Below, piece by piece: positions 32,005-47,230 of a DNA stretch of 49,322 bases (positions within the stretch are counted from its first letter, which is position 1; each line of letters starts with the position of its first letter). The translations under genes and the position numbers were made by a program. Under the pieces are notes generated by a model that saw only the letters and a program-made list of their open reading frames with translations, ran no database searches and was not told the origin of the DNA. This DNA is from a virus, in the IMG/VR virus record IMGVR_UViG_3300032322_001359, positions 1 to 49,322 of that record. One strand, written 5' to 3'.

Positions 32005-32070
32005 CTTCTCCTCCTCGTGGTGCCTCTTCGTAGCAGTTGCTATGGTTGTGCTTGCTCCACACTTGGTACT

Positions 32071-32866: not shown

Positions 32867-32877
32867 GTGGCCCCCGC

Positions 32878-33264: not shown

Positions 33265-33265
33265 G

Positions 33266-34047: not shown

Positions 34048-34054
34048 TGATACC

Positions 34055-34273: not shown

Positions 34274-34656
34274 GCGCACCTCCCGAGCGCCACCAGGGCA
34301 CGCGCAGCGGCCTCGGCAAGGGTGGAGCCGCGGTAGTACTCCTCGCGGACCACGAGCTGCAGGGTGACGGTACCCCGCATGCCATTCAGGTCGACGAGCG
34401 CGGCGGCCATCAGCATCCCCAGTAGCACCCCGCCCGTAGCGTCGTCGGTGAGGTCGGGGAGGTCGTCGCAGTACACGGGCGCGGACACCCACGCGCCCGA
34501 CGGCAACATGCGGGCCCCGGTTCCGGCCACGGCGTCGCCGTCCCACTGCACCACGCGCACGAGGCGTCCGCTGCACTGCGCCAGCATCCCCGCCCGCCAC
34601 CGCCACCCCGGCAGCGCCACGAGGGCGCGGGCAAGCTCGACCTGCGCGGGGGTCAC
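34270..34656 (-). CDS. Phage ABA-sandwich domain protein
   Basis: This is a 128 aa protein starting at GTG 34656. The pattern of LARALVALPGWRWRAGMLA, LPDLTDDATGGVLLGML and a C-terminal helix LAEAAARALVALGRC resembles the phage ABA sandwich domain family, often found in runs of small early genes. The family's activity is unknown. It is coupled on both sides by GTGA overlaps. Confidence 0.62.
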   Translation of the reverse strand: MTPAQVELARALVALPGWRWRAGMLAQCSGRLVRVVQWDGDAVAGTGARMLPSGAWVSAPVYCDDLPDLTDDATGGVLLGMLMAAALVDLNGMRGTVTLQLVVREEYYRGSTLAEAAARALVALGRCA

Positions 34657-34877
34657 GAGAGCACCACGTCGCGCAGGAGCAGCGCGTGGGCGAGGGCCTC
34701 GTCCTCGGTGGGATGGTGCCATATCCACTTGCCCCGCCACCCCGTACTCCACCGGTCTGGGCCGGTCATGGCTGTCTCGCCTGCCGGATAGGTGCGATCG
34801 TCGCTGTAGGGCGACACCCACCACGCGCCCTCGCTGCGCACCCACCCCAGCGCCTCCGCACGCTCGCGTGGGGTCAC
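34653..34877 (-). CDS. Small hypothetical protein
   Basis: This is a 74 aa protein from GTG 34877 (overlap with preceding TGA). It starts MTPRERAEALGWVRSEGAWW and contains several Trp residues. Its C-terminus (EDEALAHALLLRDVVLS) is helical and resembles the end of ABA-sandwich-type proteins. Probably a small relative of the downstream gene, which is inference. Confidence 0.6.
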   Translation of the reverse strand: MTPRERAEALGWVRSEGAWWVSPYSDDRTYPAGETAMTGPDRWSTGWRGKWIWHHPTEDEALAHALLLRDVVLS

Positions 34878-35326
34878 GGGGCCACCCCCGCCAGCACCCA
34901 GCCGTCGGCGATGAGGGCGGCGTCCACAGCCGCGCGGGCGGCTTCCGGTGTGTCGCAGCGGCTGTCTACGTGCCGGCCGCGCTCCTCGGTGAGCGCAGTC
35001 GCCCAGTACCCGCCGCCGTGGTGCGGCAAACCAGCGGCCCCGACCCACGCACCGTGCGCCCGGGTAAGCGGGCGGCGCTCCTGGTCGTCCGGGTCACGCG
35101 CCGTCCCCACGTTGCAGCGCACCCACGCCCGCGCCACCTTCGCCCCGTCCACCACCCGCACCGCTCGGTCCGGGTCGGCGCGCAGCAGCTCGCGGAGGAT
35201 GGCGTCCCCACCGTCGGGCTGGGCGGCGAGGTGAGCGATGAGGTCGTGCAGCACCGTGTTCGACGGCCGGGTCCGTGAGGGCGCCTGCCCGCATGTGGTC
35301 ACGCCGCCCCACGTCGACTCACCCAC
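34874..35326 (-). CDS. Hypothetical protein
   Basis: This is a 150 aa protein from GTG 35326, with GGAGGTGACTC upstream encoded within the end of the previous gene. It starts MGESTWGGVTTCGQAPS and ends in a helix (TPEAARAAVDAALIADGW). It is Arg/Asp-rich. Some of the composition comes from very GC-rich codons. Function unknown. Confidence 0.62.
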   Translation of the reverse strand: MGESTWGGVTTCGQAPSRTRPSNTVLHDLIAHLAAQPDGGDAILRELLRADPDRAVRVVDGAKVARAWVRCNVGTARDPDDQERRPLTRAHGAWVGAAGLPHHGGGYWATALTEERGRHVDSRCDTPEAARAAVDAALIADGWVLAGVAP

Positions 35327-35807
35327 GAGTCACCTCCCGCGCCACCGCCGCCAGGGCCAGCGCGTCCACGAGCCGCGAGCCGTCGGGCAGGCGGGTGTCG
35401 TCGTTGGGGTCGAGGGCGGCAAGGGCCGGCGCGCGGTCGTCGTCGAACCAGCGCCACCGGTCGCCGTCCTCCGGCGTGACGGTCAGCAGCCCGAACAGCA
35501 GCCCTGGCGCTCCGCCCAGCCCGCGCCGCCCCGGCACCACGCACGCCGACGAGTGCGGGCCGTCGGTGTACAACGTGGCGGCCAGCACCCGGCACACCCG
35601 ATCCCGAACCTCTGCGTGCGAGGCGTCGAGAGAGATCAACGCGATCGGGACACACCCAAACCGCCCGGTGCTTGGCACGGCGACATCGCACAGGCCTTTC
35701 GGCGTGATCCCGCAGGCGATCACCCGCGTGCCACGCTCCAGCACCGGCCCACACCAGCCCTCGAGCAAGGCGCGGGTCGCTGGGATTCGCAGTCGCTCGT
35801 CACTCAT
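35319..35807 (-). CDS. Hypothetical protein
   Basis: This is a 162 aa protein from ATG 35807 (GAGG upstream). It starts MSDERLRIPATRALLEGWCG and has a conserved-looking middle (CGITPKGLCDVAVP, then GCVPIALISLDASHAEV). It is Arg/Asp/Gly-rich and not recognised. Its end overlaps the next start and its start overlaps the methyltransferase end. Confidence 0.65.
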   Translation of the reverse strand: MSDERLRIPATRALLEGWCGPVLERGTRVIACGITPKGLCDVAVPSTGRFGCVPIALISLDASHAEVRDRVCRVLAATLYTDGPHSSACVVPGRRGLGGAPGLLFGLLTVTPEDGDRWRWFDDDRAPALAALDPNDDTRLPDGSRLVDALALAAVAREVTRG

Positions 35808-36474
35808 TGGCTGCCTCATGGTTGAACTGTCCGAAGTTCGCTGGCTTCTTCTTCGGAGGCTTCCCGCCGCCGGCGAGGAACAGCTTCCGAATCTCGGCGC
35901 TCTCCTTGCGGCGCACGTCTGGCGGCGTTTCCTCCAGGAATCCGACGCCACCTTTGAGCGGGCCCCAGATGAACCACGCGTACTCGGTTGCGTCCGTTCC
36001 GTACCCGGTGAACGACGGTCGGTTCGGAAGAACTTGCATGCTGCATGGGCGGAAGACGTCCCTGAACAGACGCGACTGGCTACGTGGTCCGGCCAGGAAT
36101 CCAACGCGGAGCAGCATGGCGCATCCCTTGATGTTCCCCATGTTGTACATGCAGTGCTCGATGGACTCCTGCGCGATCCGGTACGGTGGGTTTGAGATGA
36201 CGAACGTGCCGTTCTCCACGGTCTGGACGTCGAAGACCGAATGCTGGGTGAACTCGTGCTTGCACCCACGATCGACGATGTCGCTCCCCCGCAGCCTTGC
36301 GCTCGCTCCACGGGGGTGCTCAGCGATGGCATCGAGAATCCGTCCGTCGCCGCAGAACGGGTCGTACCACACCTTCGACCACGGAAGGATGTCGAGCAGG
36401 CGGTGCGTAGCCCACTTCGGGGTGCGGTAGAAGTCGTCCTTCTCGCGCGTCGCTCCTCGGTTCGTTGCGCTCAT
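35800..36474 (-). CDS. DNA adenine methyltransferase
   Basis: This is a 224 aa class I methyltransferase. YDPFCGDGRI near 37-46 is the SAM-binding motif and ISNPPY near 92-97 is the catalytic (D/N)PPY motif of N6-adenine or N4-cytosine enzymes. The preceding DDFYRTPKWATHRLLDIL segment fits phage Dam-like enzymes. It may protect phage DNA from restriction. The specificity cannot be read from the sequence. A GATC target would be relevant to the octamer region at 46.9-47.2 kb. Overlaps the helicase stop (ATGA). Confidence 0.85.
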   Translation of the reverse strand: MSATNRGATREKDDFYRTPKWATHRLLDILPWSKVWYDPFCGDGRILDAIAEHPRGASARLRGSDIVDRGCKHEFTQHSVFDVQTVENGTFVISNPPYRIAQESIEHCMYNMGNIKGCAMLLRVGFLAGPRSQSRLFRDVFRPCSMQVLPNRPSFTGYGTDATEYAWFIWGPLKGGVGFLEETPPDVRRKESAEIRKLFLAGGGKPPKKKPANFGQFNHEAANE

Positions 36475-38267
36475 TTGATGCTCCAGACCTTGTGTGTTCT
36501 TGCCAGCGCCAGCGCGTCAGCCACGATGCGCTTCGCCTTCTTCCCGTCCTCGGCTCCGCCGTAGGCCCCGTTCACCTTTTGCGCTCGCCTGGCCACGTCC
36601 TCGAGCAGGGCTTGCGTCATCAGCTTATGCACCGGGGATGGTGACAAACGAAACAGTCGGTCATCGTTTGTCACCCACACCGGATGCCAGTGTTCCTCGT
36701 CCGCGCGAACCATGAACAGGCACCCGTGCCGACCAAGGTTCGAAGCGAACACCTCACCGCTGACGGAGAGCTTGTGCCACGCGATCTTCTCGCGAGCCTT
36801 CGGCGGTCGGAACAGCGCCGAGGTGGAGTCCAGCATCTCCGTGCCGCAGCACACGCACTTCCGCTTCTGGTCCTCCCACGGGACCCACTCGTGCTCGAAG
36901 TTCGGCGAGTCCTTGCACTGCAGCGCGCCACACCCACGGCACACGCCGTCAACGAACCGATGCCCGCCCAGCCTGGCATAGCATCGAATCACCTTCCCAC
37001 AGTCCAGGCACCGGCCCTCTCCCGTGCCCTCGATGGGGACGAACCGGTGCGTACCGTCGTCCGCGTTCGGGCAGTCGTCTCCATCCACCAGCACCGGCGC
37101 CGCCACGATGGAGTGGACCTTCGTCGCACCAACCAGGTCGAGTACCAGCGCCTTCGACTGGTCCCCGTACGGGCGGAGCACACGCCCGACCATCTGCACG
37201 TACAGCGACCACGACTTCGTCGGTCTGGCCAGCACGCACCACTGCGCGCGAGGGATGTCGACGCCTTCCGTGATCAGCTGCGCGTTGCACAGGACATCGA
37301 TCTCTCCGCGCTCGAACCTGCTGAACATGTCCTCGCGCAGAGCCTCTGGGAACGGAACCCGCTTGTGGCTCCCGTCCTCGAGCACCTCGTCCGTGATCAT
37401 CTCCCCGGCGATGTACTCGGCGCGCCATCCGTCTGCACGCAGCGCTTCCGCCGTACGCTTTGCCTGCTCCACCGTGGCGGTGAACACGATGCCACCGCCG
37501 ACGTTCAGGTCGCACTCCAGGTAGGCGGTGTGGTCCCGGAAGGGGAGCCGCTCCGCGGCATGAGTCTTCGCTACCGCGGCGACGGTGTGCTCGACGATGT
37601 GCGCCTTGAGCAGTGCGCGCTCGAGGTCGGGGGCGGTGTAGTCGCGACGACCGCCAACCTTCGACAGGTCCAGGTCCGGCACCCGGTCGAGCGCCACGTA
37701 CGGCTGCAGTAGCACGCCGTCCGCCAGAGCATCGGTGATGGTGTAGCTGTAGACCACGAGCCACCGGTCGGAGAGTCGGCGGGTATCCTCCCGGTCCGGC
37801 GTTGCCGTCAGCCCGAGGAAGTGAGCCCCACCGAGGGTGGAGAGGAGTCGGTCGTACTGCGGGGATACCGAGTGGTGTGCCTCGTCCACAACCACCAGGT
37901 CGAATGCTCCATATGCCAGTACCTGCTGCAGTCGCTTGTCCTTCGCGAGCGTCTGCATGCTGGCATACACCAGCCTCGCGCTGTGGTCCTTGTACTGTTG
38001 TCCCTGCACGATCCCAGCAAGTGGAAGGAACTCCGGGAAGTACTTCCTCAGTGCTCCATCGTTCGTCAGTGGCTGCTTCACCAAGCGATTCTGGTGCGCA
38101 AGCCACAGCACCCGCTTACCTGCGCGGAGGTAGTCCGCCATGATGAAGTGAGCGGTCGCCGTCTTCCCAGTTCCGGTCGCCATGACGAGCATGGCTCCCT
38201 TCGTGTGGTCGTGCGCGAGGTACGCGTCACGAGCGGCGATCTGGTGCTTGCGCGGAGCGAAGGTCAC
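36471..38267 (-). CDS. DEAD/DEAH-box superfamily 2 helicase
   Basis: This is a 598 aa protein with the helicase motifs in order: ATGTGKT at 30-36 (I), DEAH at 128-131 (II), TATP at 154-157 (III), and QMVGRVLRP near 360 (VI). A Cys-rich segment near 420-480 (CLDCGK, CRGCG, CVCCG) probably binds zinc. It could unwind or remodel DNA during replication or recombination. It sits downstream of the tRNAs and DUF7448, coupled to both neighbours by overlaps. A perfect 12-bp inverted repeat lies inside its 3' part (36640-36675). Confidence 0.93.
   Translation of the reverse strand: MTFAPRKHQIAARDAYLAHDHTKGAMLVMATGTGKTATAHFIMADYLRAGKRVLWLAHQNRLVKQPLTNDGALRKYFPEFLPLAGIVQGQQYKDHSARLVYASMQTLAKDKRLQQVLAYGAFDLVVVDEAHHSVSPQYDRLLSTLGGAHFLGLTATPDREDTRRLSDRWLVVYSYTITDALADGVLLQPYVALDRVPDLDLSKVGGRRDYTAPDLERALLKAHIVEHTVAAVAKTHAAERLPFRDHTAYLECDLNVGGGIVFTATVEQAKRTAEALRADGWRAEYIAGEMITDEVLEDGSHKRVPFPEALREDMFSRFERGEIDVLCNAQLITEGVDIPRAQWCVLARPTKSWSLYVQMVGRVLRPYGDQSKALVLDLVGATKVHSIVAAPVLVDGDDCPNADDGTHRFVPIEGTGEGRCLDCGKVIRCYARLGGHRFVDGVCRGCGALQCKDSPNFEHEWVPWEDQKRKCVCCGTEMLDSTSALFRPPKAREKIAWHKLSVSGEVFASNLGRHGCLFMVRADEEHWHPVWVTNDDRLFRLSPSPVHKLMTQALLEDVARRAQKVNGAYGGAEDGKKAKRIVADALALARTHKVWSIK
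36640..36675. repeat. Perfect 12-bp inverted repeat inside the helicase gene
   Basis: The arms GGTGACAAACGA (36640-36651) and TCGTTTGTCACC (36664-36675) are separated by 12 bp, within helicase codons. The GTGACAAAC half-site also occurs in the promoter-like elements at 42.9 and 45.3 kb. It could be an operator, a protein-binding site or an RNA hairpin. Confidence 0.7.
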
Positions 38268-38671
38268 TTGGTCACCAGCACCACGTCGACGTCCTCCGAG
38301 TAGTATCCGTTCGACTCACCGACCCACCGAAGGCACACGTCTCCGGACATCGTATGGATTCGGTAGAACGTCCACGTCGACGTCCCGTCCTCGACCGGCC
38401 GATCCCCGGACGACACCTCCGCCATCGAAACGACCTCACCGATGATGTCGGACGGATCCCCTGCCACGTCCTCGATGCACACGTACTCACAGCAGTCCTG
38501 GTTGTGGAACAGCACGAACGTCCCAGCCTCAGTGTCGATCTCCACCTGCTCGCTGTTCTGGTCCATCCCCCTGATGGCCAGGATCTTCTGGCCGGCGAGC
38601 TTCTCGAAGACATCCTTGCTGGACTCGTCTTGTTCGTAGTACATGTCGCGCAACGTCACGCGGTCGATCAT
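38264..38671 (-). CDS. DUF7448-like protein
   Basis: This is a 135 aa protein. GGGAGAA fits the ATG at 38671 (MIDRVTLRDMYYEQDE) rather than ATG 38683. The segments FHNQDCCEYVCIEDVAGD, TSTWTFYRIHTMSGDV and RWVGESNGYYSE are the recognisable core of the DUF7448 family found in phages. The conserved CC pair and GESNGYYSE suggest a metal site or enzyme pocket, but activity is unknown. Family naming is from memory. Confidence 0.75.
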   Translation of the reverse strand: MIDRVTLRDMYYEQDESSKDVFEKLAGQKILAIRGMDQNSEQVEIDTEAGTFVLFHNQDCCEYVCIEDVAGDPSDIIGEVVSMAEVSSGDRPVEDGTSTWTFYRIHTMSGDVCLRWVGESNGYYSEDVDVVLVTK

Positions 38672-38690
38672 TGGTTCTCCCATGAGAAAG

Positions 38691-38763
38691 CGCCCACGAC
38701 AGGAGTCGAACCTGTGACATACGGCTTAGAAGGCCGATGCTCTGTCCGCTGAGCTACGTAGGC
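38691..38763 (-). tRNA. tRNA-Arg (anticodon TCT)
   Basis: This folds as a cloverleaf on the minus strand: acceptor GCCTACG pairs with CGTGGGC, the loop CTTCTAA gives anticodon TCT (reads AGA), and the T-loop is TTCGACT. The anticodon stem has one T-T mismatch at its top. No CCA is encoded. AGA and AGG are usually rare in GC-rich hosts. Confidence 0.93.
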
Positions 38764-38770
38764 GAAGTGA

Positions 38771-38843
38771 TGTCCGCGGCAGGACTTGAACCTGCGGCCC
38801 CCTGATTAGGAATCAGGTGCTCTATCCACTGAGCTACGCGGAC
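38771..38843 (-). tRNA. tRNA-Arg (anticodon CCT)
   Basis: On the minus strand, acceptor GTCCGCG pairs with CGCGGAC and the anticodon stem CCTGA/TCAGG holds loop TTCCTAA, anticodon CCT (reads AGG). T-loop is TTCAAGT. AGG codons are visible often in the phage structural genes, for example in the giant virion gene. Confidence 0.94.
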
Positions 38844-38846
38844 GAG

Positions 38847-38920
38847 TCGGGGTGGTCGGATTCGAACCGACGACCAGCAGCTCCCAAAGCTGCTGCGCTA
38901 CCTGGCTGCGCTACACCCCG
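38847..38920 (-). tRNA. tRNA-Pro (anticodon TGG)
   Basis: On the minus strand, acceptor CGGGGTG pairs with CACCCCG and stem GCAGC/GCTGC holds loop TTTGGGA, anticodon TGG (reads CCA). The CGGGG start is typical of bacterial tRNA-Pro. T-loop is TTCGAAT. Confidence 0.94.
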
Positions 38921-38926
38921 TGAGTG

Positions 38927-39313
38927 TCAGAACGGGAGGTCATCGTCCGGGAGGCCGGTCGGGTTCGGGTCGGCCTCGCGCTTCCCGCCGCCGCCACCGA
39001 TCAGGGTGAGCCGGTCGATGGTGAGTTCGGTCGAGTACTGGTCCTTCCCGTCCTTGTCCTGCCACTTCCGGGTGTGCATGCGACCCTGCACCGAGACCTC
39101 CGAGCCCTTGCTCAGGTACTTGGCGGCGATCTCTGCCGTCTTCCCGAAGCACACGGCGCGGAACCACTCGGTCTCCTCCACGTACTCATCTCCCTTCTTC
39201 ACCCGCTCGCCCACGGCGATGCGAAGGTTGGCGATCGGCTGCCCGGACTTCGAGGCCCGGACCTCCGGGTCGGCGCCGAGCCGGCCGATGACGACGACGA
39301 TCTGGTATCCCAC
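38927..39313 (-). CDS. ssb: Single-stranded DNA-binding protein
   Basis: This is a 128 aa SSB from GTG 39313. The OB-fold pattern is clear: VVVIGRLGADPEVR, ANLRIAVGE, TEWFRAVCFGKTAE and KGSEVSVQGRMHTRKW. The Gly-rich linker leads to the acidic tip DDDLPF, which binds partner proteins. It coats ssDNA during replication and recombination. The Rad52-like annealase lies 8 bp upstream in the same operon. Confidence 0.97.
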   Translation of the reverse strand: MGYQIVVVIGRLGADPEVRASKSGQPIANLRIAVGERVKKGDEYVEETEWFRAVCFGKTAEIAAKYLSKGSEVSVQGRMHTRKWQDKDGKDQYSTELTIDRLTLIGGGGGKREADPNPTGLPDDDLPF

Positions 39314-39321
39314 TGCTCACC

Positions 39322-40167
39322 TCACTGAAGAGTCTGTCGAGACTCGATGATGTCGTTGACGTACTTCGAGAACTGCGCGCGACCCTTGCCGAGGAGCCAG
39401 CCGAGCAGCTGCTCGCGCTTCTCCTTCGGCATCTGGCTCGGGCGCTGCTTGCCGATCGACTCTAGGAAGTCGGCCAGCATGTCGTAGTCGTACCCCTCAT
39501 CGGCCGGGAAGTTCGCAGAGTACTTCGCCATGAAGGCTCGGTTCCCACCACTGGTCCACTCGGGATCGTGGGGCGCGTCGGGCACCGGGTCGACCCGTCC
39601 GGCGCTGCCCTCGGGCGCATCCTTGCGGGTGCCTGCGGCGACCTGCTCGCGAGCAGCCTGCATTGCGCCACCCGGCGGCTTGCTCTTCGGCCGGGCCCAC
39701 TCGGGCATCTTCGGGCGCAGGACGAACCCGTACGAACCGTCCGGCTTCTTCACGGAGATGGAGCCCTTCGGCCCCCGCCCGGACTCCACCTTCGCGAACT
39801 CCTCGCCGAGGTCGTACAGGTACCGGCCGATCCCGAAGAGCACCGCGCACCGCTTGAGCGCGCCAGACACGCCGCCCTTCAGCGGTTCGACGTCCGTGAG
39901 GTCGCTGATGTCCTCCTTCGTCACACCACCGGCGGTGATGCGGCACATGAATCCGGCGTGCTTCCCGAGTTCGATGGTCCGGTACTCGACCGAGTACCCG
40001 TCGACGCCGAACACCAGGTCGAGCCGGTCCATCACCGCTCGAGCGGTGACGTACGCGATGAGCGACGCAGAGGTGCCACCAGAGTGGACCCGCTGCACGC
40101 GCCACTCGATCTCGTTGTCGGGATCGAATGGCTCCCGAAGCATGGAGCACTGTTCCTCAGAGAGCAT
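39322..40167 (-). CDS. Rad52/22-like single-strand annealing protein
   Basis: This is a 281 aa protein starting at ATG 40167 (GAGGA upstream). The segments EIEWRVQRV, AYVTARAVMDRLD, WGVDGYSVEYR-like (FGVDGYSVEYR) and GALKRCAVLFGIGRYLYDL are the core of phage Rad52-type annealases. It would pair complementary single strands coated by the SSB next door. A Pro/Lys-rich linker and a C-terminal helical domain (GYDYDMLADFLESIGK) follow. Confidence 0.88.
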   Translation of the reverse strand: MLSEEQCSMLREPFDPDNEIEWRVQRVHSGGTSASLIAYVTARAVMDRLDLVFGVDGYSVEYRTIELGKHAGFMCRITAGGVTKEDISDLTDVEPLKGGVSGALKRCAVLFGIGRYLYDLGEEFAKVESGRGPKGSISVKKPDGSYGFVLRPKMPEWARPKSKPPGGAMQAAREQVAAGTRKDAPEGSAGRVDPVPDAPHDPEWTSGGNRAFMAKYSANFPADEGYDYDMLADFLESIGKQRPSQMPKEKREQLLGWLLGKGRAQFSKYVNDIIESRQTLQ

Positions 40168-40330
40168 TGAAGTCCTCGGTCGTGTAGTTGGTCGTCGTTC
40201 CGGTCTCGTCGTCGGACGAGTACCCATCGTCGTGCAGCGCGTCGAGCGCCGACTGCCACAGCGAAAGGTGGTAGGTAGTGTATTCCGGATCGTCGTCGTA
40301 CGGGGCATCGAAGTCGTCACCGTAGGTCAC
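40157..40330 (-). CDS. Small acidic protein (57 aa)
   Basis: This short gene starts at GTG 40330 with GGAGGTGATGA directly upstream, overlapping the stop of the Gly-repeat gene (GTGA). It ends 11 bp inside the annealase gene. It is very acidic (MTYGDDFDAPYDDDPEYTTY, then HDDGYSSDDET). It may be a DNA mimic or a partner of the annealase, which is speculation. Confidence 0.72.
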   Translation of the reverse strand: MTYGDDFDAPYDDDPEYTTYHLSLWQSALDALHDDGYSSDDETGTTTNYTTEDFNAL

Positions 40331-40527
40331 TCATCACCTCCACTGCCGTTGCCGGAGCCGAAGCCGAAGCCGAAGCCGGAGCCGGAGCCGTAGCCGGAGC
40401 CGAAGCCGAAGCCGGAGCCGTAGCCGGAGCCGGAGCCGTAGCCGGAGCCGGAGCCGAAGCCTTCGCCGTCGGTCCATGGCTCAGCCTCGACGATGGCGCC
40501 GTTGAGGATGCGGCGGAGGCTACTCAT
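40327..40527 (-). CDS. Glycine-X repeat protein, paralogue C
   Basis: This is a 66 aa protein with an N-terminal block MSSLRRILNGAIVEAEPW shared with the other two Gly-repeat proteins. It then has repeats of Gly alternating with Ser, Tyr or Phe (GFGSGSGYGSG) and a closing SGGDE. The last codons contain GGAGGTGA that serves as ribosome site for the next gene. No enzyme or membrane motif. The low-complexity region is probably disordered or forms extended strands. Confidence 0.85.
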   Translation of the reverse strand: MSSLRRILNGAIVEAEPWTDGEGFGSGSGYGSGSGYGSGFGFGSGYGSGSGFGFGFGSGNGSGGDE

Positions 40528-40787
40528 CCTTCACCTCCACTGCCGTAGCCGTAGCCGTAGCCTGAGCCGCAGCCGCAGCCGGAGCCGACGCCGTAGCCGG
40601 CGCCGTCGCCGTCGGCGTAGCTGGAGCCGTAGCTGGAGCCGACGCCGTAGCCGTAGCCGTTGCCGACGCCGTCGCCGGAGCCGTTGCCGTAGCCGCAGCC
40701 GAAGCCGAAGCCGTCGGCCCACGGCTCGGCCTCGACGATGGCGCCGTTGATGATGCGGCGAAGGCTACTCTTCTGGTGCTGGTCCAT
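40524..40787 (-). CDS. Glycine-X repeat protein, paralogue B
   Basis: This is an 87 aa protein starting at ATG 40787 inside the end of the RHH gene, with GGAG upstream. It has SSLRRIINGAIVEAEPW and a Gly-X region with Cys, Tyr, Asn, Asp and Val (FGCGYGNGSGDG). It ends SGGEG; these codons include the ribosome site of paralogue C. It is the most divergent in the X residues and the only one with three Cys in the repeat. Confidence 0.85.
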   Translation of the reverse strand: MDQHQKSSLRRIINGAIVEAEPWADGFGFGCGYGNGSGDGVGNGYGYGVGSSYGSSYADGDGAGYGVGSGCGCGSGYGYGYGSGGEG

Positions 40788-40968
40788 CTGGATTCTCCGC
40801 CTTGAACTCTCGAATGAGCCACGAGATGAACGCTGACCGGTTGACGACCGTCGACCGCATCCAGTCGACCAGGTCAGATGGCACCGTGATGTCGAGGTGT
40901 ACCACCTTACCTGTATCCAGCCCCTGAAAGTGAGGGCGCGTAGAGAACACGTTCTTCGGCGCCTTCAT
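40765..40968 (-). CDS. Ribbon-helix-helix DNA-binding protein
   Basis: This is a 67 aa protein starting MKAPKNVFSTRPHFQGLD. VVHLDITVPSDLVDWM followed by RSAFISWLIREFK is the strand-helix-helix layout of CopG/MetJ-type regulators, which dimerise on inverted repeats. Its place between Gly-repeat paralogues A and B suggests it regulates this operon. It starts in the stop of paralogue A (ATGA). Confidence 0.75.
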   Translation of the reverse strand: MKAPKNVFSTRPHFQGLDTGKVVHLDITVPSDLVDWMRSTVVNRSAFISWLIREFKAENPDGPAPEE

Positions 40969-41345
40969 CCTTCACCCCCACTGCTGAAGCCGAAGCCGAC
41001 GCCGTTGCCGGAGCCGGAGCCGACGCCGCTGCCGTCGCCGGAGCCGCTGCCGTCGCCGGAGCCGTTGCCGTTGCCGTTGCCGTAGCCTTTGCCGTAGCCG
41101 TAGCCGTTGCCGTAGCCGTAGCCGTCGCCGTCGCCGTCGCCGTAGCCGTTGCCGTTGCCGTAGCCGTAGCCGTAGCCGTAGCCGTCGCCGTCGCCGTCGC
41201 CGTAGCCGTTGCCGTTGCCGTTGCCGTAGCCGTAGCCGTTGCCGTTGCCGTTGCCGTTGCCGTAGCCGTAGCCGTTGCCGTTGCCGTTGCCGTAAGTACA
41301 TGGCTCAGCTTCGGTGATGGTTCCGTTGAGGATGCGGCGGATCAT
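40965..41345 (-). CDS. Glycine-X repeat protein, paralogue A
   Basis: This is a 126 aa protein starting at ATG 41345 (overlap with DUF6948-like stop). MIRRILNGTITEAEPCTYG matches the N-terminal block of paralogues B and C. The rest is Gly alternating with Asn, Tyr, Asp or Ser, encoded mostly by GGC plus NAC codons. His, which would be CAC, is absent from the repeat. It ends SSGGEG, whose codons contain the ribosome site of the next gene. Function unknown. Confidence 0.87.
   Translation of the reverse strand: MIRRILNGTITEAEPCTYGNGNGNGYGYGNGNGNGNGYGYGNGNGNGYGDGDGDGYGYGYGYGNGNGYGDGDGDGYGYGNGYGYGKGYGNGNGNGSGDGSGSGDGSGVGSGSGNGVGFGFSSGGEG
40980..41294 (-). repeat. GGC-NAC hexanucleotide repeat tract
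   Basis: The plus strand shows about 50 units of gccgta, gccgtt, gccgtc and gccgct over 315 bp. On the coding (minus) strand these read GGC followed by TAC, AAC, GAC or AGC. The units vary almost only at the first base of the second codon. The tract encodes the Gly-X region of paralogue A and is expected to change length by slippage. Shorter related tracts lie at 40334-40465 and 40533-40718. Confidence 0.9.
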
Positions 41346-41743
41346 CGTCCGGTCCACACCGGGAGCGAGTCCCACTGAGCACAGGCCGCCGGGGTACACT
41401 CGACGATCTCGACGTACTCTTCGATGGCGACCTTCGCCACCGCGCCAGCGATCCGGCCTCCGGTCGGGCCGGTGATCGCGAGGCCGGAGCAGCTGCCGGC
41501 GCCGGTCCAGTAGTGGGCACGGCGAGCCTGCTCCAGCACGAGCTGGCCGTCCGGGTGGGCGACGGACAGGGTTCCGAACCAGACCCCCGACTGGTTGGAG
41601 CGCACGATCACCCGCTGTCCCAGGAAGATGGAGGCGATGGGCGCCTGCTGTGCGGTGGGCTGGGCGGGCTGCGCCGACCCGAAGATGCTGGCGATCTCGC
41701 GGGCCTGAGCGATGGTGAGGTTGTCGATGATGCTGTTGTCCAT
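41342..41743 (-). CDS. DUF6948-like protein
   Basis: This is a 133 aa protein with GGAGA upstream. FLGQRVIVRSNQSGVWFGTL, VLEQARRAHYWTGAGSCSGL and GRIAGAVAKVAIEEYVEIVE match the core of DUF6948, a family of small phage proteins. It heads the operon that runs through the Gly-repeat genes to the annealase and SSB. A promoter-like element lies at 41768-41811. Confidence 0.82.
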   Translation of the reverse strand: MDNSIIDNLTIAQAREIASIFGSAQPAQPTAQQAPIASIFLGQRVIVRSNQSGVWFGTLSVAHPDGQLVLEQARRAHYWTGAGSCSGLAITGPTGGRIAGAVAKVAIEEYVEIVECTPAACAQWDSLPVWTGR

Positions 41744-41767
41744 GGTGTTGTCTCCGCTGTGTGTTTG

Positions 41768-41811
41768 TTCTGTATCTGTATGCGGGTCAGCCGCTTGTCA
41801 CGTTGTGTCTA
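41768..41811 (-). promoter_or_regulatory. Promoter-like element, copy 1
   Basis: On the minus strand: TAGAC-N5-GTGAC then 22 bp to TACAGAA. The TAG of the first half is the stop codon of the upstream gene. It precedes the DUF6948-like operon. It shares spacing with five other copies in the window. Confidence 0.62.
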
Positions 41812-42072
41812 CTCGTCGTCGAAGCTGTACTCGATCACCAGGGTTGCGCATTCCAGGCCGAGCCAGACCTCGCGCCACCACCTTCCTCGCCCGAGGTTCC
41901 CGATCATGTAGTTGTGGACCGACATGGCCGAGGCCCAGTCTGCGCCGCGTCGCATGGCCTCACCCCTTCGGCGGCGCTCCACCTCCTCGCGGACCCACGC
42001 GATCACATGGAAGCAGAAGTACTCCGGGATGACGTGGAACGCGGGGAAGTCGACATCCTTGGGGCGGCTCAC
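41809..42072 (-). CDS. Small hypothetical protein
   Basis: This is an 87 aa protein from GTG 42072 (overlaps preceding stop). It starts MSRPKDVDFPAFHVIPEYF, has a basic Arg-rich middle (EEVERRRRGEAMRRGADWA) and ends EYSFDDE. Trp-rich segment RGRWWREVWLG. Function unknown. Its TAG stop forms part of promoter-like element copy 1. Confidence 0.72.
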   Translation of the reverse strand: MSRPKDVDFPAFHVIPEYFCFHVIAWVREEVERRRRGEAMRRGADWASAMSVHNYMIGNLGRGRWWREVWLGLECATLVIEYSFDDE

Positions 42073-42293
42073 CGGGGCACCGGCCGAACCGAGTAGATGG
42101 CCTCATCGAGATCATCGCCTGCATCCCAGAACCTCACTGGCTCGCCGACGGCCAGCGATACCTCGTCGTCCGACGGCCACTTGATGTCGCCTGATTCATC
42201 GGTGCCAATGCACCGGAGCGACCACGACTCGTCGCTGAGCGGAGTCGCGCGGAAGAGGTTGGTCTTCGTCGTGAAGATGATGTCGTGTCTCAC
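42069..42293 (-). CDS. Small hypothetical protein
   Basis: This is a 74 aa protein from GTG 42293 (GTGA overlap). It starts MRHDIIFTTKTNLFRATPLS and is acidic toward the end (DAGDDLDEAIYSV). Probably a beta-rich small domain. No family recognised. Confidence 0.65.
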   Translation of the reverse strand: MRHDIIFTTKTNLFRATPLSDESWSLRCIGTDESGDIKWPSDDEVSLAVGEPVRFWDAGDDLDEAIYSVRPVPR

Positions 42294-42595
42294 CGTCCAC
42301 CCCCGATCGTCCACGTCACCTTGATCCCGTTCGGGGCGTGGTTGCCACCGAGCGAGTAGCCGTTGGGCTTCACCTCGGCATCGCCCCACTTGAGGCCCGC
42401 CCCCTTGACGGACATCGGCAGACGGACGTGCCGCTTGAGCAGCGCGAGCCAGGCGTACGTCTTGTCCTCCTTCGGCCCCGGGCTGTTCCACCCGTCGCTC
42501 TCGATGCAGTCGTGGCTGTCGTAGATGTAGTAGTCCACTGCTCGGTCGACCTGTTCCGACGGACCGATCGTGATCGCGACGTAGTACGGTTCCAT
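42290..42595 (-). CDS. Hypothetical protein
   Basis: This is a 101 aa protein starting MEPYYVAITIGPSEQVDRAV, with GGAGGA upstream. It continues with DYYIYDSHDCIESDGW and ends ITWTIGGGR-like (KVTWTIGGGR). Mixed alpha/beta. Not recognised. Confidence 0.7.
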   Translation of the reverse strand: MEPYYVAITIGPSEQVDRAVDYYIYDSHDCIESDGWNSPGPKEDKTYAWLALLKRHVRLPMSVKGAGLKWGDAEVKPNGYSLGGNHAPNGIKVTWTIGGGR

Positions 42596-42606
42596 CCTGT
42601 CCTCCC

Positions 42607-42891
42607 TCACTCGCTCGCGAAGCCGAAGAAGTACCACTCGCCATCGTCGATCTTCACGCACCCGGCGGGTCCCCACTTGTCGTCGAAGGTGCCGATGTCC
42701 ATGTGCCGGTTGACGCACTCCATCACGGACTCTCCAGCCTTCGGCTTGACTTCCTGGAACTCCGACTTCTCGGCGATGGTACCGGTGTACCCTCCGTTCC
42801 CGTGCTCGTATCGCGCCTGCTGGACGGCGCTTCGAAACGCCTCCGCCGCCGTCTTTCCACGCGCCCTCGTGAAGAACTCGCTGGCACCCAT
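42607..42891 (-). CDS. Conserved phage hypothetical protein
   Basis: This is a 94 aa protein. GASEFFTRARGKTAAEAFRS, then YEHGNGGYTGTIAEKSEF and DDKWGPAGCVK, fit a small phage protein family I recall without a known function. Its GGYTGTIAEK and WGPAGC motifs are distinctive. GGAGGACG precedes the ATG. It is first in the operon driven by promoter-like copy 2. Confidence 0.76.
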   Translation of the reverse strand: MGASEFFTRARGKTAAEAFRSAVQQARYEHGNGGYTGTIAEKSEFQEVKPKAGESVMECVNRHMDIGTFDDKWGPAGCVKIDDGEWYFFGFASE

Positions 42892-42911
42892 CTCGTCCTC
42901 CGTTGTGCTCT

Positions 42912-42955
42912 ATCTGTATCAGTGTCTGAAGGTTTCGCCGGTCACTGTTTGTCAC
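42912..42955 (-). promoter_or_regulatory. Promoter-like element, copy 2
   Basis: On the minus strand: GTGAC-AAACA-GTGAC, then 22 bp to TACAGAT. The TGA of the first GTGAC is the stop of the upstream gene (42952). It precedes the 42891 operon. Confidence 0.7.
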
Positions 42956-43170
42956 CGGATTTTGCGGATGCCTTCCGATCGGATCCGCTCCATCACCGCA
43001 TCGTGCAGTCGATCTTCGTGTTCCGGCTTCACCCTGGGCGACACGTCGTACTCGATCTCCTCGGGGTAGCAGAAGTCCGGCGGTCCAGTCAGCCTACCGG
43101 CGTCGTAGTACACGACATGCACGATGTAGTCGATGTCCTCGTCGATGCTGTCGATGGTGAAGATCATCAT
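42952..43170 (-). CDS. Small hypothetical protein
   Basis: This is a 72 aa protein from ATG 43170 (ATGA overlap). It starts MMIFTIDSIDEDIDYIVHVV and ends VMERIRSEGIRKIR. Acidic N-terminal half and basic C-terminal helix. Function unknown. Confidence 0.68.
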   Translation of the reverse strand: MMIFTIDSIDEDIDYIVHVVYYDAGRLTGPPDFCYPEEIEYDVSPRVKPEHEDRLHDAVMERIRSEGIRKIR

Positions 43171-43556
43171 GACGCACTCCGCGCGATGGAGATCAGCAGG
43201 TCTCGGAACGCGACCGGGGTGGCCGCGCGCTTCCGGCGCGACATCAACTCCGGGGTTGCGTACACCCGAAGCCCGCGCTCCTGCCGCCACCGAAGCCACG
43301 CTCGGCGCTGGTCGCGCCACTGCTGACGCACCGATGCCAGCGCCGAGGCGAAGCATCCGCCGTCGTCGCCCGTCACCTTCGAGCCGCGGTACCTCGGACC
43401 GCCGCTGGAGTACGCGCCCCACCGCTCGCACGGGGGGTGGGCCACCACGGGGTAGGGTCCAGCGTAGGACCGCGCGTCTCGCGACTCCGGCCACGGGTCC
43501 ACCCCGTCGAGCCCGGTGTAGCAGCCACCCTCCTGCACGTACAACGCTGCGATCAT
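43167..43556 (-). CDS. VAHPPC-motif phage protein, apparently internally shortened
   Basis: This is a 129 aa protein starting MIAALYVQEGGCYTGLDGVD. PVVAHPPCERWGAY is the hallmark of a phage family I recall as about 240-300 aa, with a methyltransferase-like HPPC. The C-terminus here (ATPVAFRDLLISIARSA) matches that family's ending. The region between (GDDGGCFASALASV to RRKRAATP) is only ~45 residues, so the core of about 100 residues seems to be missing. It may be inactive or a reduced form. Confidence 0.72.
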   Translation of the reverse strand: MIAALYVQEGGCYTGLDGVDPWPESRDARSYAGPYPVVAHPPCERWGAYSSGGPRYRGSKVTGDDGGCFASALASVRQQWRDQRRAWLRWRQERGLRVYATPELMSRRKRAATPVAFRDLLISIARSAS

Positions 43557-43642
43557 CACTCCCTCCGAAGCAAGGCGTCGATACCGAACCACATGGCGGC
43601 ACACCCCGCCAACAGAATCCCGGCTGCGATGATCTCGGTCAC
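43556..43642 (-). CDS. 28-aa single-span membrane peptide
   Basis: A GTG at 43642 starts a 28-codon frame overlapping the preceding stop (GTGA) and ending in a TGATG with the next gene. The peptide is MTEIIAAGILLAGCAAMW then FGIDALLRRE: one transmembrane helix with a positive tail. The last codons contain GGAGGGAG, the ribosome site of the next gene, so it could be only a leader for coupling. Confidence 0.5.
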   Translation of the reverse strand: MTEIIAAGILLAGCAAMWFGIDALLRRE

Positions 43643-43830
43643 GCCGGTGGCTCACTGGTCCACTCCCCGAGGAGAGCGGCCACATCCTGAGGCCATGCCC
43701 AGCTGGGCATGCGGTTCCACACCATGCGCGCACGCTCGAGGTCCCTCGCCTCGATCGCCTTTCGCATTGCGTCGTACGTTCGGAGCTTCGTGTCCAGTGC
43801 GTGAAGCGCCGCCGAGGTGGTCGGGTCCAT
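43639..43830 (-). CDS. Small helical protein
   Basis: This is a 63 aa protein from ATG 43830 (TGATG). MDPTTSAALHALDTKLRTYD and AMRKAIEARDLERARMVWN are helical, followed by a Trp-containing WAWPQDVAALLGEW. No family recognised. Confidence 0.65.
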   Translation of the reverse strand: MDPTTSAALHALDTKLRTYDAMRKAIEARDLERARMVWNRMPSWAWPQDVAALLGEWTSEPPA

Positions 43831-44087
43831 CACCTCACCCCCAGGAAGATGTGCCCCATGATGACTCCATCGAGCGTATGCGACAGGGCTTCCCACCGCT
43901 CGGCATGCTGGTGCAGGTTGTACTTCCACCGATCCTCGTGGAGCTTCGCCTCATCAGCCCACCGCCTCATTCGTTGCAGCGCAGGCAGGCGATCCTCATA
44001 CGACATCGCAGACACTTCAAAGACGATGCCTGCGGCCACGACGACCGGTGGGTCATCGAACGGCCAGACAACCGGAGAGGCGTCCAT
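43830..44087 (-). CDS. Small hypothetical protein
   Basis: This is an 85 aa protein from ATG 44087 (TGATG overlap). It starts MDASPVVWPFDDPPVVVAAG and continues with a long helix (ALQRMRRWADEAKLHEDRW) containing several His (LHQHAERWEALSHTLDG). Function unknown. Confidence 0.66.
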   Translation of the reverse strand: MDASPVVWPFDDPPVVVAAGIVFEVSAMSYEDRLPALQRMRRWADEAKLHEDRWKYNLHQHAERWEALSHTLDGVIMGHIFLGVR

Positions 44088-44563
44088 CACTTCGTCTCCT
44101 CGTATTCGTGGCGGGGCTTGTGCTCGTCGTACGTGGGACCGTCGACGAACCCGTCGATGATCTTCCCAGTCATGGCGTAGTGCCACCGCGCGCGACCCCG
44201 CTCGGCGGAGCCGAACACCTTGTTCGCCACCGCTTCCGCGATGGCCTGCAGGTCCTTCTCGTAGGGGTCGCCAGCGATGTCGAGCATCGCGCCCATCGGC
44301 AGCGTGACGTCCTTACCCCCGTGGAAACGGGCCAGGCGCCACACGTAGTAGGGACGGGTGCCGTGCTTGTGGTCGGGCCGGCTCGCCTTCCACACCCTCC
44401 GCCCTTCCTTTCCTCGCTTCGTGAGGACGTGCAGGATCGCTTCGATGTCGGGGGCGGGGAAGGTCCCCACCCCGTCGCAGTAGAAGCACTTCCGCTGGCT
44501 CTCGCCGTACGTGGTGTCCAGGATCCCGGTGCCCGTGCAGCGGGTGCAGTCCCTCCGTTCCAT
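44087..44563 (-). CDS. DnaJ-type zinc-finger protein
   Basis: This is a 158 aa protein starting MERRDCTRCTGTGILD, then CFYCDGVGTF: two CxxCxGxG knuckles as in DnaJ. The rest (YYVWRLARFHGGKDVTLPMG and KVFGSAERGRARWHYAM) is not recognised. It probably binds zinc and possibly nucleic acid or protein. It sits in the copy-3 operon. Confidence 0.76.
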   Translation of the reverse strand: MERRDCTRCTGTGILDTTYGESQRKCFYCDGVGTFPAPDIEAILHVLTKRGKEGRRVWKASRPDHKHGTRPYYVWRLARFHGGKDVTLPMGAMLDIAGDPYEKDLQAIAEAVANKVFGSAERGRARWHYAMTGKIIDGFVDGPTYDEHKPRHEYEETK

Positions 44564-44880
44564 CACTTCACCTCGGCGCAGCGCGCGCGGAACTCGTGAT
44601 TGACCACTGGAGCCATGTCGAGCAGGTGCTTCGGACACACGGCATACGGCCCGGCGTCTTCCTCGATCGCCTTGAATCCCCACATGTCTCCGTCGCTTTC
44701 GAGCAGGTAGACTACGAGGAACGGCACCGCATCGTAGTGGGTGGCGGTGGCCGCCACCCACAACCCATCATCCGTGACGGCCTCGCCCAGGATGTCGAAC
44801 CCGGCCGCGAACAGGTCCTTTCGGATCGCGCGGATCGCCTTGTCCTTCGTAGTCCATTCCTTGCAGTAGTCCCAGCCCAT
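44563..44880 (-). CDS. DUF6927-like protein
   Basis: This is a 105 aa protein starting MGWDYCKEWTTKDKAIRAIR and containing VVYLLESDGDMWGFKAI and GPYAVCPKHLLDMAPV. This resembles the DUF6927 phage family (MGWxxxxEW start and a PYxxxCPxxLLD motif). It is shorter than the versions I recall. GGAGGGAG precedes the ATG and promoter-like copy 3 lies just upstream. Confidence 0.68.
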   Translation of the reverse strand: MGWDYCKEWTTKDKAIRAIRKDLFAAGFDILGEAVTDDGLWVAATATHYDAVPFLVVYLLESDGDMWGFKAIEEDAGPYAVCPKHLLDMAPVVNHEFRARCAEVK

Positions 44881-44898
44881 CGCTCCCTCCGTTGTCTT

Positions 44899-44942
44899 AT
44901 CTGTATCAGTCGGTGCCGGTTTCGCCGGTCACGTTTCGTCAC
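44899..44942 (-). promoter_or_regulatory. Promoter-like element, copy 3
   Basis: On the minus strand: GTGAC-GAAAC-GTGAC, then 22 bp to TACAGAT. The first GTGAC contains the TGA stop of the upstream gene (44939). It precedes an eight-gene operon. Confidence 0.7.
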
Positions 44943-45280
44943 TCGATCCGTGCGCCGTGGTCCGACGCGAGCAGACGGATCGCGGCGTCGAGCAGCCCAG
45001 CGTCGAGCCGGCCCGTGCCACCCTCCAGCATGCGGATCAGCCCGCGCGCCATGGCTTCCCACGCCCTGCCGAGGACGAAGTCATCACCGATCCGGGCCCG
45101 GTAGCGGGCTTGGTGGAAGAATGCGATCTGTTCGAGCGCTGCGAACGCCTGCAGGATCCCGGTCTCAACCCCCCGGGGGTGCCGCGCGGCCTCGCAGTGA
45201 AGCCTGAACACGCGCTGGTTGTGCTCGTTCCACGACTCGGCCGGCGGAGTCAGCCGGTGTACGATGGTTGCGGGGATCAT
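44939..45280 (-). CDS. Conserved phage hypothetical protein
   Basis: This is a 113 aa protein with GGAGAAACG upstream. MIPATIVHRLTPPAESWNEH, FRLHCEAARHPRG and RYRARIGDDFVLGRAWEAMA form a family pattern I recall among phages (VLGxAWEAMARGLIRML). Helical. No known activity. Single-gene operon behind promoter-like copy 4. Confidence 0.74.
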   Translation of the reverse strand: MIPATIVHRLTPPAESWNEHNQRVFRLHCEAARHPRGVETGILQAFAALEQIAFFHQARYRARIGDDFVLGRAWEAMARGLIRMLEGGTGRLDAGLLDAAIRLLASDHGARIE

Positions 45281-45302
45281 CGTTTCTCCGTTGTTCTACT
45301 TG

Positions 45303-45346
45303 CTATGTATCTGCGGTTCGTTCGGCCGCCGGTCACTGTTTGTCAC
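45303..45346 (-). promoter_or_regulatory. Promoter-like element, copy 4
   Basis: On the minus strand: GTGAC-AAACA-GTGAC, then 22 bp to TACATAG. The second GTGAC holds the TGA stop of the XF1762-like gene (45333). It precedes the 45280 gene. Confidence 0.7.
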
Positions 45347-45827
45347 GGTTCGGGCGGCCGACGTGGGCGAGCTTCGGATCCTCGGTCCCGCACCACGCGG
45401 GAGCCCAGCGGATCTTGTCGACCCCGTCGACATCGCCCGGCCTGCGAGGCCTGCTAGGACAGGACCACCGACGCCCCCGCACGAACGCTTCCGGAACCCA
45501 CCCCGCCGCCCGGAGGGACGTGCCCGGTTCCGATGCGAGGGTGTATGTGACGATCGAATGGCCGGCCTTGCGGGCCCACCTTGCAGCCGCACCATACAGT
45601 GCCGAGCATGCGTTGCGGGTGCCGTCCGTGGCAACCCTGGTAACCTCCATGTATCCGCGTGCCTGCAGAACCCGAGACACTGGGCGCCCCACGATCGCGA
45701 ACGACGTGAGCTGCCCGTCAACATCGACGGCATACGCCACCTTCCCGCCGAGTGGCGGCCGATGGTGTCGATGAAGCCGGGCCACGCCATCCCGCGCGAC
45801 CCGTATCGGAACCTGTACCACGCGCAT
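45333..45827 (-). CDS. XF1762-like (GNAT-type) protein
   Basis: This is a 164 aa protein starting MRVVQVPIRVARDGVARLHR. HRHHRPPLGGKVAYAV, AIVGRPVSRVLQARGYMEV, TRVATDGTRNACSALYGAAA and TYTLASEPGTSLRAAGW form the XF1762 family signature, an acetyltransferase-like phage protein. Its substrate is unknown. It lies 1 bp after the Gp88-like gene. Confidence 0.84.
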   Translation of the reverse strand: MRVVQVPIRVARDGVARLHRHHRPPLGGKVAYAVDVDGQLTSFAIVGRPVSRVLQARGYMEVTRVATDGTRNACSALYGAAARWARKAGHSIVTYTLASEPGTSLRAAGWVPEAFVRGRRWSCPSRPRRPGDVDGVDKIRWAPAWCGTEDPKLAHVGRPNRDKQ

Positions 45828-45828
45828 G

Positions 45829-46620
45829 CTACCCCCGAGAGAGGACATCCCGAAGCTTACCCTCCCGCAACCCCATCGCGTCGAACGCGACGGCCTTACC
45901 CGGGTTCGTCCAGCACAACCGGCACTCCGCGCACGTAAGACCGCGTGCCTGCTCCAAGCACGCGAACGCGTTGCGGCGGCGGAGATCATCGGCATCGAAC
46001 CCGTTGACGACGATCGACCCCATCGCGCCGTCCCGATCCGAGATCCGGATCATGATGCCGGCTTCCCACAACGTGTCGAGCCACGGTCCGCCCTCGAAAT
46101 GTGTGTAGCCGAACGCGACTTCCCTCCGCCCCGAGAGACGCTGAACCTCGCGACCGATGGCGGCCACCGCCTCCACATATTCGACGTCCACCACGCCGTC
46201 GGCGCCGAAGTCTCCGACCCCGTGGATACGGGCCGCGACCGGCCGACCCTTGGAATTGACCGTCGTACCCGCCACCCCGATCGCGAGGCAAGCCGCCCGG
46301 ATCGCGTTGTCGCGGGGGCTTCCGGCCTCCCGGTCCCGCTTCGACGAAAGAGCCGTCCTCCCGAAGAGGCCGAAGCACGTCCCGTCCCCGCCCAGATGTT
46401 CCGGGAGACGCGGGCACGAACCCGGGCACGTTTCCCCCACCGCGCGGTACGTCGTCGGAACCGCAGTCTTCCCATTGCCGAAGCCAACCGGAGCCGTGTC
46501 CGGGAGGCGGGCCCGGTGGATAGTCCGAGCCTTCAATCGCATGCTCGCGAGGTAGTAGCCGCGAGCCAGCGTGACGTACCACGGCTCCGCCATGGTGACG
46601 GTTTCGATCTTGTCCAGCAT
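45829..46620 (-). CDS. Gp88/DUF7227-like Cys-rich protein
   Basis: This is a 263 aa protein. TYRAVGETCPGSCPRLPEHL, GDGTCFGLFG, RIHGVGDFGADGVVD, AFGYTHFEG and CAECRLCW resemble the Gp88 (DUF7227-type) family found in phages and plasmids. The Cys clusters suggest a metal or Fe-S centre. The start is ATG 46620 with GGAGGAGCG; promoter-like copy 5 lies upstream. Activity unknown. Confidence 0.7.
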   Translation of the reverse strand: MLDKIETVTMAEPWYVTLARGYYLASMRLKARTIHRARLPDTAPVGFGNGKTAVPTTYRAVGETCPGSCPRLPEHLGGDGTCFGLFGRTALSSKRDREAGSPRDNAIRAACLAIGVAGTTVNSKGRPVAARIHGVGDFGADGVVDVEYVEAVAAIGREVQRLSGRREVAFGYTHFEGGPWLDTLWEAGIMIRISDRDGAMGSIVVNGFDADDLRRRNAFACLEQARGLTCAECRLCWTNPGKAVAFDAMGLREGKLRDVLSRG

Positions 46621-46645
46621 CGCTCCTCCGTTCGTTGTCTGCCTA

Positions 46646-46689
46646 CTATGTATCAGCGTGCCTCGGAACCGCCGGTCACGAAATGTCTC
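46646..46689 (-). promoter_or_regulatory. Promoter-like element, copy 5
   Basis: On the minus strand: GAGAC-ATTTC-GTGAC, then 22 bp to TACATAG. The second GTGAC holds the TGA stop of the upstream gene (46676). It precedes the Gp88-like/XF1762 operon. Confidence 0.66.
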
Positions 46690-46885
46690 CGCTGTAGTTC
46701 ATACGGAACCGACCGCAGGGGGACCAGCGCCAAGGACGGGACATGTCCACGATCCTCACGTTGGACATGCCTTCGGAGCGGAGCCGATCGGCGAGGGAGC
46801 GTGCCTCGGACAAGGTGTCCACGTCCTCACGTCGATCGGGATGAATCCGCATCCAAGCCGGAACCGTCCAGGTAACGAGGTACAT
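46676..46885 (-). CDS. Small hypothetical protein
   Basis: This is a 69 aa protein starting MYLVTWTVPAWMRIHPDRRE, with GGAG at a good distance. A helix (TLSEARSLADRLRSEGMSNV) and a strand VRIVDMSRPW follow. It resembles small phage proteins of unknown function. It lies directly downstream of the GATCACAC repeat region and is probably transcribed from it. Confidence 0.72.
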   Translation of the reverse strand: MYLVTWTVPAWMRIHPDRREDVDTLSEARSLADRLRSEGMSNVRIVDMSRPWRWSPCGRFRMNYSGDIS

Positions 46886-46920
46886 TTTACACTCCGTGCG
46901 CCAGGCGACATCACACGTAA

Positions 46921-46959
46921 GATCACACAGTGTGATCTCCGTGTGCAGGTTGTGTGATC
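46921..46959 (+). repeat. Left arm of 39-nt inverted repeat
   Basis: This arm matches the reverse complement of 47172-47210 at 37 of 39 positions. It contains three GATCACAC octamers (two as a palindrome) and a GTGTGCAGGTT core. The arms are 212 bp apart. Confidence 0.9.
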
Positions 46960-47136
46960 TAGAAAGATCGAGTTAGAAGCTTGCGAATAGACAGAAAACA
47001 CTACCCAGATCACAGAGATCTAGATCTATACCCCCGCGAGAGAGAGCTGCATCCATGTGTGCGATATCACACACATCTCCCGTTCACCCTAGGGGGGGGG
47101 TGCAGATCCGAAACTGTGTGATCTTGACCCCATTTT

Positions 47137-47155
47137 CCGGCTAAAGAGTAGCCGG
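47137..47155. other. Short hairpin (7-bp stem)
   Basis: CCGGCTA and TAGCCGG flank the loop AAGAG. No T-run follows on either strand, so it is not a standard terminator. It lies inside the control region. Confidence 0.6.
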
Positions 47156-47171
47156 AACCTAGGGAAAAGGT

Positions 47172-47210
47172 GATCACACAACCTGCACACAGAGATCACA
47201 CGGTGTGATC
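47172..47210 (-). repeat. Right arm of 39-nt inverted repeat
   Basis: This is the inverted partner of 46921-46959, with two mismatches. A further GTGTGATC at 47214-47221 mirrors the ATCACAC at 46909-46915 with a 1-nt spacing difference, so the symmetry extends outside the arms. Confidence 0.9.
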
Positions 47211-47230
47211 CTCGTGTGATCTCGGACCGG

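Follow-up and report, generated by a model that had tools for sequence, protein, structure and literature searches.

The 345-bp intergenic gap at 46886-47230 of this viral contig is probably an iteron replication origin of the SaPI/PICI (DUF927 initiator) class, with the product of gene 31 as its initiator, a reading for which both analogy and anatomy speak well but which is unproven. Its computed basis is an octamer array, a dyad symmetry, a minimum of DNA stability, the family to which gene 31 belongs and the arrays found beside most relatives of that gene. The window, meaning the whole stretch of DNA that was analysed, is a virus record of 49,322 bases formed by the single contig IMGVR_UViG_3300032322_001359, in which the plus strand carries the structural genes (1-28.5 kb) and the minus strand the replication genes and small genes (28.5-49.3 kb). 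The gap has a minus-strand predicted gene on either side, coding support being weak for its downstream neighbour, gene 65. With that reservation, an earlier note on this DNA was right to describe the region as non-coding and AT-richer, its GC being 0.516 against ~0.64 contig-wide. GATC occurs 13 times in it, and 7 times in the next 345-bp bin.

Several other features of the contig deserve mention. Rfam matches in it were confined to three tRNAs, whose genes, Arg(TCT), Arg(CCT) and Pro(TGG), lie at 38690-38920 between a DUF7448 gene and that of the single-strand binding protein (SSB), and 750 bp close to the contig end (47638-48387) are without a confidently called gene. A minus-strand frame at 45333-45995 is like Mom-like DNA modification proteins (phrog_1384, 2.5e-29) and a DNA methyltransferase-like gene is located at 35800-36474, two features which together suggest that the phage DNA may be self-modified.

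The GATCACAC/GTGTGATC octamer is present in eight exact copies, of either orientation, within 46921-47221, the number that the earlier note had counted, whereas 2.58 would be expected for the entire 49 kb. The contig total of 10 was reached by no shuffle, and when the 345 bp were simulated 5000 times with a first-order Markov model, every 8-mer had three copies or fewer. The inverted repeat described in the same note was likewise recovered, with 37 of 39 positions (95%) complementary, and is the longest of the contig. Three additional sites with one mismatch (46909 CATCACAC, 47008 GATCACAG and 47065 TATCACAC) bring the array to 11 sites, each of 8 bp and separated by gaps of 1 to 49 bp. Their orientations are 46909+, 46921+, 46930-, 46952-, 47008+, 47065+, 47116-, 47172+, 47194+, 47203- and 47214-. 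The elements of the region are as follows.

46886-47230, no strand assigned: whole non-coding element, candidate replication origin (intergenic gap)
46909-47222 (314 bp), no strand assigned: 11-iteron dyad-symmetric array, axis 47065.5, 92/155 mirrored
46909-46916, plus strand: outer iteron CATCACAC, one mismatch
46921-46959, plus strand: left arm of the 39-nt inverted repeat, with sites 46921(+), 46930(-) and 46952(-)
47008-47015, plus strand: left inner iteron GATCACAG, one mismatch
47063-47073, plus strand: axis site GATATCACACA, with GATATC centred exactly on 47065.5
47116-47123, minus strand: right inner iteron, exact mirror of 47008
47172-47210, minus strand: right arm of the 39-nt inverted repeat, with sites 47172(+), 47194(+) and 47203(-)
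47214-47221, minus strand: outer iteron GATCACAC, mirroring 46909 with the register off by 1 bp

Exact mirror pairs about 47065.5 are formed by 46921/47203, 46930/47194, 46952/47172 and 47008/47116, the last with 100 bp in between, leaving out the outermost pair, which is 1 bp off register, and the one site at the centre. The dyad match (z 7.4) was the maximum in a scan of the whole contig, where the runner-up scored 72, and none of 3000 Markov versions reached 92, their highest score being 67. By part, the mirror match amounts to 37/40 in the arms, 8/10 in the inner sites and 59/117 outside sites. A run of nine G (47092-47100) and a run of five C (47031-47035) are mirrored inside the dyad. 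The repeated-8-mer score of the array, 84, is exceeded only by two Gly-repeat coding tracts (40.3-41.3 kb), and the same scan detected no competing non-coding array elsewhere in the contig. Array and dyad are far above chance level. Genes 48, 49 and 51, minus-strand neighbours at 40327-41345, encode Gly-X dipeptide repeat proteins with tandem expansion, and an N-terminal RRI(L/I)NG motif is common to all three products. A hairpin at 47137-47155 was considered as a terminator and rejected, having no T run and showing no excess over shuffles.

The array also contains the weakest DNA of the contig, listed here as an additional element.

46950-47029, no strand assigned: candidate DNA-unwinding element, least stable 80 bp of the contig

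Mean nearest-neighbour dG in this stretch is -1.248 versus -1.587 (z 4.7), no other 80-bp window of the contig being weaker, and the stability minimum of the contig falls in the array at the 40, 80, 150 and 300 bp scales. The weak stretch lies off-centre, in the left half of the dyad, mostly between the two arms and outside the interval of the inner sites. GC skew, which had been proposed as a check, does not decide on an origin: GC and AT skew gave no consistent origin signal, the result being mixed and confounded by gene direction. Detrended GC skew was lowest at 11.0 kb and highest at 30.2 kb, the TA extremes fell at 45.5 and 22.9 kb, and third codon positions did not reproduce this pattern.

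As to the proteins that might act on this region, the following genes are relevant.

28706-30787, minus strand: gene 31 (693 aa), DUF927 + HTH_56 helicase, proposed initiator
30784-31662, minus strand: gene 32, candidate primase partner, weak zinc-ribbon matches only
38927-39313, minus strand: gene 45, single-strand binding protein (phrog_44 4e-44; PF00436 8e-31)

The earlier note had seen no obvious replication-initiation gene, which turned out to be wrong, since gene 31, judged by its profile and structure matches, belongs to the SaPIbov1-Rep/Cch initiator-helicase family. It matches PF06048 (DUF927; 6.6e-31), PF18662 (HTH_56; 1.8e-07) and phrog_8841 (DNA primase/helicase; 7e-79), and among solved structures PDB 8tch, a SaPI protein (E 5e-25), and PDB 5dgk, the active helicase Cch (E 5e-17), the alignment to 5dgk covering residues 302-669 with the C-terminal domain included. 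Presumably this is the helicase or primase which that note had in mind. Its family suggests a self-loading helicase, and the same matches make gene 31 a strong initiator candidate for the array; a single-sequence structure model of the protein (pLDDT 40) was too poor for use. Gene 32 adjoins the helicase gene in the same placement as in relatives and gave a sub-threshold PF01807 CHC2 match (E 0.048). The profile family search of the 68 proteins predicted in the contig returned no other initiator family, and the contig yielded no match to a DNA polymerase family.

From this anatomy we infer that gene 31 would bind the octamers, that the region would serve as a start site and that firing would be bidirectional. 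In the mechanism proposed, the C-terminal winged-helix domain of gene 31 would bind GATCACAC sites, and the protein would assemble as two oppositely facing hexamers, one per mirrored half, which would melt the weak stretch and launch two forks. The phage primase and SSB would assist, while a host polymerase would copy the DNA, a role assigned to the host because of the missing polymerase family.

The Rep protein of SaPIs recognises iterons by its C-terminal domain, and Cch, which carries DUF927, is related to SaPIbov1 Rep (PMC7581432); by that paper's own statement, no SCC origin was known prior to its Cch2 work. In PICI origins an AT-rich region is always flanked by two sets of iterons, and the origin is situated immediately 3' of the gene for the initiator (PMC6092414). 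As in the SaPI/PICI elements (SaPIbov1 type, PT1028), inverted sets of short iterons extend here over ~300 bp of a compact non-coding region (11 sites in 314 bp), constitute the top dyad of the genome, contain weak DNA and coexist with an encoded DUF927-type, presumably self-loading helicase with a C-terminal HTH domain. The PT1028 iteron, GGGAACT, differs from the octamer, and the PT1028 array directly follows the helicase gene, whereas the array at 46.9-47.2 kb lies ~16 kb away from the helicase gene at 28.7-30.8 kb and not immediately 3' of it. Likewise, the AT-rich core of PT1028 lies between the inner sites, in contrast to the off-centre weak stretch of the contig. Given this lack of adjacency and an AT-rich core that is less clear-cut, the element would work like the SaPI/PICI class, as a variant of it. 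SCCmec Cch (5dgk) resembles gene 31 in an alignment that takes in the C-terminal domain, PF18662 being named for Cch, but the Cch element is a chromosomal cassette, whereas gene 31 belongs to a tailed phage in whose genome no integrase was recognised. A DUF927 helicase with a primase region is shared with the phages THSA-485A, FP_Epona, Roseburia phage Jekyll, phiRg507T2_3, AC844P1 and phiAH14b; most of these six have inverted iteron sets, with the array beside the helicase gene and not separate from it.

The association of arrays with such helicases was surveyed by scoring repeated 8-mers in 350-bp windows around gene 31 homologues at 31 testable loci (12 phage or satellite records and 19 genome loci). 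In 22 of the 31, from several phyla, the 700 bp that follow the helicase gene downstream held a dense iteron array with a score of at least 25, a fraction that is indicative only because the cut-off was fixed after the scores were known, locus L066 passes it only via a window whose start falls within the helicase gene, and the genome loci are of short length. The high-scoring array was often the top window of its stretch. Clear arrays occur in PT1028 (GGGAACT), THSA-485A (GGTAACC), FP_Epona (AGGTGAAA) and phiAH14b (GGGGAAC), as well as in the Planctomycetota G992 and G919, whose GTGTAGT iterons loosely resemble GTGTGATC. The PT1028 array is the highest dyad of its record (z 6.1), and inverted sets surround an AT-rich core in FP_Epona, phiRg507T2_3, Jekyll and THSA-485A, with an inner-pair spacing of ~80-100 bp, close to the 100 bp observed here. 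GC between the inner sites is 0.55 in the contig versus 0.19-0.30 in relatives. The helicase relatives were too diverse for their alignment to be used in scanning.

Among nearest kin, the best match found for gene 31 was the 73-kb contig C246 of G944 (loci L086-L089; 32-35% helicase identity), which also matches the terminase, portal, major capsid, tail and several other phage genes and is therefore regarded as a distant sister phage. G944 derives from a Planctomycetota genome sample, the phylum being taken from locus L061, a Pirellulales genome, and this hints at a Planctomycetota host. No iteron array or strong dyad was detectable in C246, which constitutes the weightiest negative result of the analysis. 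The GATCACACNGTGTGATC pattern had no match in viral contigs, the CACACAACCTGCACAC pattern had 21 chance matches, none with an array, the promoter motif described below had five, none beside an array, and the octamer dyad pattern gave 22 scattered single matches in genome contigs, with at most three sites per 350 bp. Protein searches of viral contigs with gene 64, portal, helicase and terminase yielded no relatives, and the closest capsid relative (L003, 88%) is an 8-kb fragment that ends short of the array; these DNA-pattern and protein searches of viral and genome contigs thus returned no relative spanning the array.

Counted against the origin reading are the ~16 kb separation, the inner GC, the off-centre position of the weak DNA, the lack of a detectable array in G944 and the inconsistent skew signal. 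As for the first, a possible reading, which we judge less likely than not, is a DUF927-type replicon whose origin and initiator gene have become separated, the helicase acting in trans from ~16 kb off (30787 to 46909), and in which the following pair might be a remnant, or a second crr-like site, of the ancestral origin.

28361-28417, no strand assigned: two octamers in inverted orientation within the terminal part of gene 29, weak candidate for a remnant or an accessory site

Directly past gene 31 there is no iteron array, just these two octamers (28361 and 28410), ~290 bp beyond the helicase stop; synonymous-codon resampling gave P = 0.007 for two, in a post hoc test picked after the pair was seen. 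In the satellite phage P4, the alpha protein is an initiator-helicase that acts on iterons at separate sites, ori and crr, although alpha belongs to a different helicase family and the P4 distances are of a few kb. The Planctomycetota contig G1036 (15.7 kb; L092 1189-1378 and 12554-12650) has decayed GTGTAGT copies behind its DUF927 helicase and an array of 11 intact GTGTAGT copies at a distance of 11 kb. This may be a precedent for the separation of origin and initiator; alternatively, the second array may come from a different element, or the contig may form a circle.

The region had also been put forward as a master control site, and the corresponding explanation, a cooperative operator, appears unlikely to us. 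A regulator such as gene 50 would bind octamer pairs, loop the arms and control leftward early transcription starting just downstream. Paired inverted octamers would suit dimers, and five minus-strand promoter-like elements, GTGACCGGCG-N15-GATACA, occur at 41801, 42945, 44932, 45336 and 46679, the array lying ~210 bp upstream of the first that leftward transcription would meet, 46679. Four of these are exact and one is a variant (41801), each ahead of a gene start, and they are probably phage-specific early promoters. In a comparison limited to these five recurrent leftward promoters, all five were without octamers, and the array was without any such promoter, so that master control gains no support. 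The ribbon-helix-helix protein suggested as a binding partner has some basis in the strand-helix-helix prediction for gene 50, but the single-sequence model is weak (pLDDT 64) and no family match was obtained. Eleven sites at one place, a stability minimum and an initiator of an iteron-using family suit an origin better, and the origin half of the original suggestion is supported strongly, if circumstantially.

It is rather improbable that an iteron origin at this location is opened by another initiator, either a host or an unrecognised phage protein, gene 31 being the fork helicase only. The array, dyad and stability minimum are independent of gene 31, the array lies away from it, and the G944 phage possesses a similar helicase and no detectable array. 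Nevertheless, gene 31 carries the C-terminal HTH_56 domain of the family itself, and the 68 predicted proteins offered no further candidate.

We regard as very improbable a partition centromere, similar to that of pSM19035, for a ribbon-helix-helix ParB-like protein. The octamer has ATCAC in common with the pSM19035 heptads, WATCACW. Arrays of parS do have mixed orientation, but full activity of pSM19035 parS needs at least four contiguous gapless repeats (PMC9499535). The sites found here are spaced 8-bp units rather than contiguous 7-bp repeats, and ParA was absent from the 68 predicted proteins, which makes a centromere unlikely. An invertible or resolvable segment, or a genome-end or packaging site, acting through the 39-nt arms is equally remote: the arms enclose 212 bp, as those of invertible promoters do, and the site is at a distance of 2.1 kb from the end of the contig, adjoining the terminase end, but the family search of the predicted proteins detected neither an integrase nor a resolvase nor any other recombinase, the contig ends are without a repeat, and mirrored sites also occur between and outside the arms, so that the arms are not a boundary. 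A protelomerase site was set aside, its gene family not having been found.

If the origin reading is true, gene 31 and the array would provide a well-defined pair of initiator and origin, open to testing, in a phage lineage that has otherwise received no study. Furthermore, the 31 loci surveyed suggest that genes for DUF927 helicases can serve as guides to origins in unannotated mobile elements.
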